Translations under genes and position numbers: made by a program
Source of the DNA: Planctomyces sp. SH-PL62
GTDB lineage: Bacteria > Planctomycetota > Planctomycetia > Isosphaerales > Isosphaeraceae
Assembly (NCBI RefSeq): GCF_001610895.1
Contig: NZ_CP011273.1
Location: 5,394,001-5,458,000, forward strand
Reading direction: 5' to 3'
Length of the DNA stretch: 64,000 nt
Shown here: positions 11,019 through 15,659 of the stretch, piece after piece
Numbering within the stretch: position 1 is the stretch's first letter
Layout of the letters: every line of letters begins with the position of its first letter
Notes under the pieces: model-generated
What the model was told of the DNA's origin: nothing
The model's input: only the letters and a program-made list of their open reading frames with translations
Database searches by the model: none

Positions 11019-12173
11019 TCAGGCGGTTTGGGGGGGGCGGGGCGGCACGCCGAGTTCGTCCAGGCGGCGGGCGAGGAGGCGTTCGATGGTCTCGGCGGTG
11101 CGTCGGTAGGTCAACTGGTCGGCGCCGATGGGGTCGGGGACGTCGCCCCCTTCGGAATCGAGGAGGGAGGAATGAGCCGCGGCGTCGGGCGCGGCGGCGA
11201 GGAGGGCCTCCAGATGGTCGGAGGTCATGGCGAAGAGGCGGTCGGCCTGCTGGAGGAGGTCGAGGCTGACGGGGCGGCTGCGGTGCTGGTCGAGCGTCCC
11301 CCCCATCGCGCGGAGGATCTCCACCGCGTGGGGGGCTGCGGGGGCGCCGTGGGACGCCGCGACGCCCGCCGAGACGACCAGGAAGCCTCGCGATTCCAGA
11401 TCGCCGATGGCGCACCCCAGGCGGCGGGCCAGGAGCACCTTGCAGATCGCCTCGGCCATCGGGCTGCGGCAGGTGTTGCCGGTGCAGATGAAGCCGAGGA
11501 CGATCCCCGAACGTCGGGTCAGGGTCCCCTCGTCGACGACCCCTTCCCGGGCGATCGACCAGCGATCCCCGTCGATGCGCACCACGGTGGCGACGCGGCC
11601 CAGGCGGCTCGGCCCGGAGTCGATCGCCATGTCGACGTCGGCCATCGCCCGCAGGGGTTCGGCGGTGGTGGCGGGGGAACCGTCGGGGTTGCGGACGAGA
11701 CTCAGGACCAGGGGCGCCGGGCAGAACTGGAGGATCTGCCGCATCAGGAGGTTCTCCGGACAGCGGAGCGCCACCTCGCCCTCTGGGGAGATCATCGGCT
11801 TGACCGCCTCGGGGAGGCGTTCGAACAGGCCTTCGCGGCCGGACCGCGGGAAGACCAGCGAGACCGGGCCGGGCCAGCATCGGCGTGCGAGCCGGGCGCC
11901 GATCGCGGGAAGGTCCGGGACCCAGTCTCCCGCCTCGGACGCCCCCTTGAGCAACAGGGTCAGAGGCCGGGGCTCCGCATCACCCCGAAGCGCCCGGAGC
12001 CGGGCCACGCCGGGGGGGTTCAAGGCGCTGGCGGCGAGGCAATAGACCGTCTCGGACGCGAGCCCGACGACTCCCCCCTGGGCCAGACAGGCGACGGCCT
12101 GATGCACCACGTCACGGGCGTCGTCGCACTGCGACAGGTCGATCCACTGGGAAGGAGAAGGGCTGTCCGTCAT
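11019..12173 (-). CDS. Fusion of YrdC/Sua5-like domain and low-molecular-weight (arginine-type) protein phosphatase
   Basis: 384 residues in two domains. Residues 10-215 match the YrdC/Sua5 fold (GGVVGLASETVYCLAASALN, WPGPVSLVFPR), the family that makes threonylcarbamoyl-AMP for tRNA t6A. Residues 224-370 are a low-molecular-weight phosphatase with P-loop CTGNTCRS (230-237) and the general-acid VPDPIG (Asp347). The Thr four residues after the catalytic Cys equals the residue that gives Bacillus YwlE its phospho-arginine preference. The YrdC part lacks the usual KxR and SAN-type nucleotide motifs (it has SLVRNPDGSPAT), so synthase activity is doubtful. In Bacillus, ywlC (YrdC) and ywlE are neighbouring genes; here they are one protein. 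The ribosome site is weak. Confidence 0.85.
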   Translation of the reverse strand: MTDSPSPSQWIDLSQCDDARDVVHQAVACLAQGGVVGLASETVYCLAASALNPPGVARLRALRGDAEPRPLTLLLKGASEAGDWVPDLPAIGARLARRCWPGPVSLVFPRSGREGLFERLPEAVKPMISPEGEVALRCPENLLMRQILQFCPAPLVLSLVRNPDGSPATTAEPLRAMADVDMAIDSGPSRLGRVATVVRIDGDRWSIAREGVVDEGTLTRRSGIVLGFICTGNTCRSPMAEAICKVLLARRLGCAIGDLESRGFLVVSAGVAASHGAPAAPHAVEILRAMGGTLDQHRSRPVSLDLLQQADRLFAMTSDHLEALLAAAPDAAAHSSLLDSEGGDVPDPIGADQLTYRRTAETIERLLARRLDELGVPPRPPQTA

Positions 12174-12249: not shown

Positions 12250-12546
12250 TCAGAGCAGCAGCGTCAGGCCGCTGATATCCTGGATCTCGGCGTAGATCGA
12301 GCGAACTTGCTCGGCGTTCTGGACCGTAAGTTCGAGCGTCATGGCGATGTGACGCCCGCCTCGGGTGGCGCGGACCGAGTATTCCAGGTCCGAAGACGCG
12401 GCCAGGTGTTTGGTCACGGCCTCGGCCACCCGCTTCTCGAAATCATCCTCAGCCAGGCCGATCGCCTTGATCGTGTAGTTGCCGGGGAACAGGTGAGTCG
12501 ATTCCAGGAGGTCCACCGAGGGACGATGATCCGGGCGACTGTCCAT
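12250..12546 (-). CDS. DUF493 (YbeD-like) small protein
   Basis: A 98-residue protein of the DUF493 family, recognised from LFPGNYTIKAIGLAEDDFEKRV near residue 20 and the regularly spaced sheet/helix pattern that ends YAEIQDISGLTLLL. The fold is ferredoxin/ACT-like and members are thought to be regulatory, but no reaction is established. GGAG precedes the ATG by about nine bases. It lies 76 bases upstream of the YrdC-phosphatase fusion on the same strand, so co-transcription is possible. Confidence 0.82.
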   Translation of the reverse strand: MDSRPDHRPSVDLLESTHLFPGNYTIKAIGLAEDDFEKRVAEAVTKHLAASSDLEYSVRATRGGRHIAMTLELTVQNAEQVRSIYAEIQDISGLTLLL

Positions 12547-14120: not shown

Positions 14121-15659
14121 ATGCGACCTTCCCTGATCTCGAACTATCTCGCCGGCAAGTCGACCGGCGACGTTTCTCCCGCGTTCCTCGCCTATCTGGC
14201 CAGCCTGGAGACCGTCGCGAGCGTCTCCCCGGAGATCGCCCGCGCGATCGTCCGGGAGCTGGCCGACCAGCGGAGCAACATCAAGCTGATCGCCAGCGAG
14301 AACTACTCGTCGCTCGCCACCCAGCTGGCGATGGGCAACCTGCTGACCGACAAGTACGCCGAGGGGATCCCGCATCGCCGCTTCTACGCCGGTTGCGACA
14401 ACGTCGACACGGTGGAGGACCTGGCCAACGTCCGCGCCCGCGAGCTGTTCGGCGCCGAGCACGCCTACGCCCAGGCCCACAGCGGCGCCGACGCCAACCT
14501 GGTCGCCTTCTGGGCCATCCTCCGGGCCCGGGTCGAACTCCCCAAGATGGCCGAGGTCCTGGGCCTGGAGAACGCCGAGGCGCTGACCCCGGCCGACTGG
14601 ACCAAGATGCCGATCGAGCAGTGGAATCAGGTCCGCCACGCCCTGGGCAATCAGCGCCTCCTGGGCATGGACCTGGCCTCGGGCGGGCACCTCTCCCACG
14701 GCTACCGCCTGAACGTCTCGGGCAAGATGTTCGAGTCCCACGGCTACACCGTCGACCGCGAGACCTTCCTGCTCGACTACGACGCCATCGAGGCCCAGGC
14801 CCTCGAGGTCAAGCCGCTGATCCTGCTGGCGGGCTTCAGCGCCTATCCCCGCAACATCAACTACCGTCGGATGCGCGAGATCGCCGACAAGGTGGGCGCG
14901 GTCCTGATGGTCGACATGGCCCACTTCTCGGGCCTGGTGGCGGGCAAGGTGCTGACCGGCGACGAGGACCCGCTGGCCTTCGCCGACGTGGTGACGACGA
15001 CCACGCACAAGACCCTCCGCGGCCCCCGGGGCGGCCTGGTCCTGTGCAAGAAGGAGTTCGCCGAGCACGTCGACCGGGGCTGCCCGCTCGTGCTGGGGGG
15101 CCCCCTGCCCCACGTCATGGCGGCCAAGGCGGTCGCGTTCACCGAGGCCCTCCGCCCCGAGTTCCGCGCCTACGCCGCGAAGATCGTCGAGAACTCCCGG
15201 GCGCTGGCCGAGGCCTTCGTGAGCGTCGGCCTCAACGTCATCTCCGGCGGTACCGACAACCACCTCGTCGTGGTCGACGTCGCCTCCGCCCTGGGGGTCA
15301 CCGGCCGCCAGGCCGAGGACGCCGTTCGGCGCTGCGGGATCACGCTCAATCGCAACCCGATCCCGTTCGACCCCAACGGCCCCTGGTACACCAGCGGCCT
15401 CCGGTTCGGCACCCCCGCCGTCACCACCCTGGGCATGGGTGCCCCCGAGATGCGCGAGATCGCCGAGGTCGTCCGCCTGGTGCTGACCAACATCGTCCCC
15501 GGCCAGAACAAGACCGGCGGCAAGGACAAGGCGAAGTACACCCTCGACGCGGCCGTCGAGAAGCAGGCGAGCGACCGCGTCGCCAGGCTCCTCGGCTCGT
15601 TCCCGGTCTACCCCGAGCTGGACCTCCGCTTCCTCCAGGCCCAGTTCGACGCCGGCTGA
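14121..15659 (+). CDS. glyA: Serine hydroxymethyltransferase, long form
   Basis: Interconverts serine and glycine using tetrahydrofolate and PLP. 512 residues, against about 415-430 for most bacteria. Family blocks are clear: [50 protein letters not shown], and [14 protein letters not shown] with the PLP-contacting Asp265 and His268. The Schiff-base lysine is Lys297 in [14 protein letters not shown]. The extra length is an N-terminal extension and an insertion at about 136-185 ([20 protein letters not shown] and on), as in chlamydial and other PVC-group enzymes. ATG at 14121 follows AAGG. A rhodanese gene follows on the same strand. Confidence 0.95.

Follow-up and report, generated by a model that had tools for sequence, protein, structure and literature searches.

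The fusion gene and its occurrence

The window, by which we mean the whole 64,000-nucleotide stretch analysed here, carries on its reverse strand a gene whose product joins an N-terminal YrdC/TsaC-like half to a C-terminal low-molecular-weight (LMW) phosphatase half resembling YwlE (Table 1).

Table 1. Features of the fusion locus in window coordinates
Feature	Position	Strand	Basis
YrdC-LMWP fusion CDS (P0001)	11019..12173	-	384 aa, ATG start; single ORF
YrdC/TsaC-like half, residues 7-222	11508..12155	-	PF01300, 87 bits (cut-off 25.1); aligns with Sua5 6f89
Lost K-x-R motif site, R63-G64-D65	11979..11987	-	Alignment to Sua5 L001, where the motif is KGR
Lost S-x-N motif site, S158-L159-V160	11694..11702	-	Alignment to Sua5 L001, where the motif is SAN
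YwlE-like LMW phosphatase half, residues 223-378	11040..11507	-	PF01451, 82.8 bits (cut-off 23.2); match to YwlE 4etn
Phosphatase loop CTGNTCRS, C230-S237; T234 at the pArg/pTyr specificity position	11463..11486	-	Sequence; excerpts of PMC8001253
D347 in the D-P-x motif (DPIG); presumed general acid, as in YwlE/PtpB	11133..11135	-	Invariant in alignments
DUF493 gene, directly upstream of the fusion	12250..12546	-	PF04359, 74.1 bits; conserved neighbour in the window's family

Pfam places a Sua5_yciO_yrdC domain at residues 30-211 and an LMWPc domain at residues 227-367, and finds no other domain in the window protein. An AlphaFold2 model, for which the window protein and 74 loci (75 sequences) were aligned as input, has a mean pLDDT of 95.8 and a pTM of 0.89, so that both predicted folds, and probably their placement relative to one another, can be taken with confidence. 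Against solved structures, residues 7-222 find their best Sua5/TsaC match in 6f89 (Z 27.0, rmsd 2.0 over 205 residues), and residues 223-376 match four LMW phosphatase entries that we count as tied: YwlE 4etn (Z 24.7, rmsd 1.3, 37% identity), the Thermus LMW-PTP 2cwd (Z 24.9, 33% identity), 4egs (Z 24.7) and a second YwlE entry, 4kk4 (Z 24.2). The first-pass annotation had described a YrdC fold devoid of its K-x-R and S-A-N motifs joined to a phosphatase with a CTGNTCRS loop, and reading frame, Pfam, structure and motifs all agree with that description.

The fusion is widespread and well conserved in Planctomycetota. The window protein was matched (E <= 0.001) in 366 of 392 planctomycete genomes, and a PF00217 kinase was matched in 371 of them. 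Because the weaker of the former matches may span one half only, we based the analysis on 130 fused genes (30 loci and 100 further genes, taken from about 150 rows of matches) in which the match runs over both halves. Drawn as they were from planctomycete genomes, all 130 belong to Planctomycetota and cover 49 family codes; their genomes rank high in similarity to the window protein and do not form a random sample. A second set, the best 80 loci among the matches listed from named genomes, was retrieved with a single pattern and ranked by similarity to the window protein, and its titles are recognisably planctomycete or read plainly "bacterium". We kept 76 of these loci, leaving out three with a stop and one that was short, and the alignment took in 74. 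A pattern check of 75 proteins found both TsaC motifs in 39, S-x-N only in 4 and neither in 32; by this check the fused YrdC halves of the cultured Rhodopirellula rubra and Neorhodopirellula pilleata are degenerate.

Within the window's own family, all 45 genomes match the fusion, 41 of them over most of its length and four (G410, G411, G415 and G426) in part, which shows that the fusion is not a chance match. An assembly error was ruled out, since the degenerate state of the YrdC half recurs in all 30 aligned proteins of the family, and a single scan of viral contigs with the window protein gave no relative that would point to a phage or mobile origin. One genome of this family carries a second, more distant fused copy (G400:C341:465-1610, 44% identity) beside one of 56% identity.

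The phosphatase half and arginine phosphorylation

The phosphatase half of the window protein has an intact CTGNTCRS loop and a complete D-P motif, D347 being invariant in both alignments examined (A1, 35 rows; A2, 75 rows). The same loop is present in 30 of 30 aligned proteins of the window's family, and its Cys and Arg are kept in all 130 fusions, of which 123 read C-x-G-N-x-C-R-S, one reads CTANTCRS and six carry Asp where the second Cys would be. With B. subtilis YwlE and S. aureus PtpB the window protein shares the fold, the C-x5-R loop with its Thr, the second Cys and the D-P motif. It differs from them in having an N-terminal YrdC domain and in the residue after D-P, which is Ile in the window protein, Phe in YwlE and, according to excerpts of PMC8001253, Tyr in PtpB. 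The genomic context is also shared: McsB and McsA-like genes occur in the genome, and rpiB is a common neighbour in relatives.

That T234 occupies the specificity position, as the first-pass annotation had noted, is plain from the sequence, and the role of this position in phosphoarginine preference is described in the available text of PMC8001253, where Thr at the fifth variable loop position gives YwlE its preference for phosphoarginine and Ile a preference for phosphotyrosine, and where a T11I change in PtpB raises general (PNPP) phosphatase activity. Across the 130 fusions the position holds Thr in 109, Ser in 14 and Ile, Leu or Met in 7; the genomes of these 7 nonetheless contain McsB. 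The best matches of this half among solved sequences are YwlE and, with an equal E-value, a homologue from T. tengcongensis that is filed under RpiB. The Thr signature and the YwlE match fit a protein-arginine phosphatase, and we conclude from the sequence comparisons that this half most likely removes McsB-placed phosphoarginine from proteins.

The source genome (6.78 Mb, estimated completeness 100%) has the corresponding kinase. An McsB-type arginine kinase, which the first-pass annotation had proposed looking for, was found as the single PF00217 guanidino-kinase match; it scores 442 bits against an equivalog cut-off of 385 with the protein-arginine-kinase model NF002194, and 384.7 against 500, thus under the cut-off, with the stricter Bacillus McsB model NF053707. 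Upstream of it lie two tandem McsA-like genes (L003, 2244-2789 and 2786-3328 on the reverse strand) that overlap by four bases and score 100.3 and 122.4 bits, below the McsA model cut-off of 210. Clp_N pairs occur in three open frames, scoring more strongly in two and weakly in the third, and these frames may encode ClpC or ClpB. The fusion is the only LMW phosphatase match in the genome, no second one having been detected there.

We considered whether this half might instead be an ordinary tyrosine or small-molecule LMW phosphatase whose link to McsB is coincidental, a reading that we regard as unlikely. The fold is common to enzymes of other specificities: 2cwd ties with YwlE in the structural comparison (Z 24.9 versus 24.7), Wzb and MPtpA come next, and the specificity position holds Ile, Leu or Met in 7 fusions. 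In addition, McsB occurs with no detected LMW phosphatase in 10 of 13 genomes of family f46 and in all three of family f77, that is, as a kinase without a recognisable YwlE, and the kinase therefore does not require this phosphatase. Against such a reading stand the predominance of Thr and Ser in the fusions, the best matches among solved sequences and the effect of Thr versus Ile on preference in YwlE, as given in the same excerpts of PMC8001253. Moreover, in 25 other LMW phosphatase loops, from genomes with a weak or absent fusion match, the position is Ile in 10 and Thr in 11 (two of the 11 being fused), which indicates that Thr is not automatic in this phylum.

In all six fusions of family f62 that were examined in full (L113, L127, L125, L146, L148 and L153), the second Cys of the loop, which lies just before the catalytic Arg and is kept in the other 124 of the 130 fusions, is replaced by Asp; a loss of redox control is possible. 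A reciprocal decay in this family, through loss of the phosphatase motif in these six fusions, was considered and rejected, since the full sequences keep both Cys and Arg.

The TsaC-like half and its relation to a separate Sua5

The K-R-S-N tetrad of TsaC is absent from the window protein, which has RGD at the K-x-R site and LSLVRN where canonical Sua5 has PSANRS. The S-x-N column is slightly shifted between our two alignments, so that the four-letter tetrad codes of degenerate proteins are approximate, but LSLVRN holds no S-x-N either way. None of the 30 aligned proteins of the window's family has the full tetrad, and all six members of the window's genus keep RGD or RGE together with LSLVR. 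By comparison, standalone Sua5 proteins keep the tetrad in 31 of 31 cases in a scan of the phylum (30 of them its best-scoring matches) and in all 42 from the genomes of the comparison that follows, a set that overlaps the former. With the NCBIfam equivalog model TIGR00057 the window protein scores 80.9 bits, below the cut-off of 123.2. Judged by these sequence features, its TsaC half is most likely a pseudoenzyme.

The source genome contains two PF01300 matches, the fusion and a 349-aa Sua5 (L001) with an intact tetrad, which scores 195.8 bits against the TIGR00057 cut-off and is the second, canonical TsaC that the first-pass annotation had suggested looking for; TsaD is present as well. The genome thus holds both a separate Sua5 and an arginine kinase, the opposite of the gene content (no arginine kinase and the fusion as the sole YrdC) that was to count against the original reading. 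A second YrdC match is likewise present in 41 of the 45 genomes of the window's family, and the four that lack one (G397, G404, G425 and G426) are each at most 85% complete.

For a comparison across the phylum, we listed the PF01300 matches of the 130 genomes and split them by score and frame length into Sua5-type genes and HypF-type or weak longer-frame genes; all 42 Sua5-type genes were read for the tetrad, and the HypF-type genes were sorted by score and length alone. The full tetrad is kept in 71 of the 130 fusions, 69 of them in genomes without a Sua5 and 2 in genomes with one. S-x-N is kept with a changed K-x-R in 24 (18 without Sua5, 6 with), and S-x-N is lost in 35 (1 without, 34 with). 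In the 69 tetrad-keeping genomes the fused YrdC is therefore the sole detected TsaC candidate apart from HypF-type proteins. The interpretation offered by the first-pass annotation accordingly stands as regards the two genes looked for in the genome and has to be narrowed in another respect: the degenerate state is only one of several, and many relatives have the full tetrad.

The association between the state of the fusion and the presence of Sua5 gives a Fisher p of 1.4e-16 when scored by the tetrad and of 1.7e-22 when scored by S-x-N, both of which ignore shared descent. Within families f34, f67 and f78 the same contrast is seen, but it fails in f3 (G353, G274) and f35 (G031). With tree-based independent pairs on supported branches, 4.6 of 7 pairs ran the same way for the tetrad and 0.0 the opposite way (median p 0.0625); a second tree-based pair test gave 4.2 of 9 and 0.1 (median p 0.125), and the tests for S-x-N gave median p values of 0.25 and 0.125. 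None of the descent-aware tests reaches 0.05, for the tetrad or for S-x-N. The association is thus strong in raw counts but unproven once descent is corrected for. The pattern suggests that the fused TsaC half still works in cells that have no other copy and decays in those with a separate one.

Several genomes depart from this pattern. The tetrad is kept beside a Sua5 in G353 and G031. In G274 (L032), a genome that is 99% complete, the fused tetrad is changed (KQAA) and no Sua5 was detected. K-x-R is changed in G188 and G289, again with no Sua5 detected; 16 further genomes complete the 18 Sua5-less ones with a changed K-x-R and a kept S-x-N, among which L078, L093, L084 and L121 read K-S-S-N. 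Either the K-x-R residue is replaceable in those 18 genomes or t6A is made otherwise there, and K-x-R may consequently not be a strict marker of activity.

Estimates of dN/dS (by the Nei-Gojobori method; rough values, since dS reaches 1.1 within the window's genus and is frequently saturated in other groups) bear on what became of the degenerate half. In 15 within-genus pairs from the window's genus they range from 0.13 to 0.35 for the degenerate half and from 0.15 to 0.39 for the phosphatase half. For the window protein against G377 they are 0.48 (YrdC) and 0.27 (LMWP). The medians for the degenerate genus g4 are 0.10 and 0.04, from the 9 and 7 of 36 pairs, respectively, with usable dS. The intact genus g9 gives 0.02 and 0.004, and intact f62 gives 0.27 for both halves. 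Outside the window's genus the constraint on the YrdC half is looser relative to that on the phosphatase half. Purifying selection on the degenerate half in the window's genus implies that it probably keeps a noncatalytic role, possibly a regulatory or binding one, and there at least the half does not look like a neutral relic.

One could nonetheless suppose that the degenerate half is a functionless relic in slow decay and that the phosphatase alone matters, an account to which we assign a low probability. It would explain why the YrdC half varies widely in family f2, where it is degenerate in 23 of 23 fusions examined, and two genomes of that family (G307 and G344) have a CTGNTCRS phosphatase followed by rpiB for which no YrdC half was detected in about 1.5 kb of upstream flank, although one could lie elsewhere. 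The YrdC half also changes faster than the phosphatase half in three degenerate genera (g4, g3 and g14) and between the window protein and G377, but the intact groups g9, g6 and f70 show this too. The constraint in the window's genus, about equal to that on the phosphatase half, and the low median in g4 speak against a relic, as do the motif-site residues common to all six genus members and the confidently predicted fold; some of the constraint could come from selection that keeps a covalently attached domain able to fold.

That the half has become a changed enzyme, with new residues in the TsaC pocket and another substrate, seems very unlikely: the new stretches are conserved within the genus and under constraint, and the YrdC superfamily does include HypF, TobZ and YciO with other roles (excerpts of PMC10321239 and PMC12506659), but the letters at the tetrad positions vary widely between genera of the family, with none of the 30 aligned proteins keeping the full tetrad, which is unlike a single new active site.

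Gene neighbourhood, proposed origin and proposed role

Downstream of the fusion, at least 101 of 175 loci have an rpiB-like gene (in 100 cases on the same strand), with a median gap of -4; the count, which took in 74 of the 80 loci from named genomes, is a lower bound because many loci end early, and the identity of rpiB was checked with Pfam on one exemplar. No rpiB was found within the window. In the window's family the DUF493 gene neighbours the fusion in 26 of 29 distinct loci (L206 and L291 are identical in sequence and were counted once). In Bacillus, ywlC, ywlE and rpiB are clustered. The simplest reading of the origin of the gene is that adjacent tsaC and ywlE genes fused within an rpiB cluster and that the TsaC function was later lost where a Sua5 was present; since the trees are unrooted, the direction of change is inferred.

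The joining of TsaC to a phosphatase is an architecture that we have not found described, although TsaC and YwlE themselves are known. With TsaC/Sua5, the L-threonylcarbamoyladenylate synthases, the window protein shares the fold of residues 7-222, and 71 of the 130 fused relatives share the whole tetrad; unlike them, the window protein has no tetrad, falls below the TIGR00057 cut-off and has a phosphatase partner in place of the SUA5 domain. Like HypF and TobZ, in which YrdC is combined with a Kae1-like domain, it is a multidomain protein built on YrdC, but those proteins serve a different pathway, and the absence of further Pfam matches means that it has no Kae1-like partner. YciO is also a PF01300 paralogue and does not replace TsaC in vivo; according to excerpts of PMC12506659 it largely keeps the active-site residues, whereas the window protein has lost the tetrad. 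The accessible portions of PMC10321239 and PMC9654439, which deal with TsaC/Sua5 diversity, name HypF and TobZ as YrdC fusions and contain no mention of Planctomycetes or of a phosphatase; in the former, sequences were filtered for the tetrad, and few species had both TsaC and Sua5. In the open-licence full-text literature we found no published description of a YrdC/TsaC-phosphatase fusion, YrdC and YwlE occurring together only through YrdC in the title of a reference, and the open-licence literature yielded no study of protein-arginine phosphorylation or McsB in Planctomycetes, the one match being a paper on receiver domains.

We consider it reasonably probable that the window protein is a YwlE-type phosphatase that erases McsB phosphoarginine marks and carries an N-terminal pseudo-TsaC descended from a once-bifunctional TsaC-YwlE fusion. 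In the ancestral planctomycete fusion, which would have arisen from tsaC and ywlE genes adjoining each other beside rpiB, one polypeptide would have combined TsaC activity (t6A tRNA modification) with arginine phosphatase activity. The presence of a separate Sua5 would then have freed the fused TsaC half of its catalytic duty, and the tetrad would have been lost. In the window's lineage the half would have been kept as a folded, constrained and noncatalytic domain, most simply as a scaffold for the phosphatase or a binder of a partner or ligand; the domain may help the phosphatase to keep its shape, interact with a partner or act as a ligand sensor.

A fusion of this kind would be sensible in the light of B. 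subtilis TsaD, the partner of TsaC in t6A synthesis, which excerpts of PMC7546277 describe as arginine phosphorylated and dependent for its stability on YwlE, McsB and ClpC. By analogy, a bifunctional TsaC-YwlE might couple t6A synthesis to phosphoarginine quality control, shielding t6A enzymes such as TsaD from ClpC, and where a Sua5 is present the TsaC half might aim the phosphatase at the t6A machinery or report on ATP or threonine. We put this extension forward tentatively and regard it as doubtful.

The pattern amounts to an unusual natural experiment, with one and the same fused domain intact where a universal tRNA modification seems to depend on it and worn where it seems redundant. The fusion also brings protein-arginine phosphorylation into Planctomycetota and gives a route by which the Bacillus link between phosphoarginine and t6A can be tested. 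On the forward strand of the window, opposite to the fusion and about 2 kb away from it, lies glyA (SHMT; 14121-15659), whose Bacillus counterpart neighbours ywlE.
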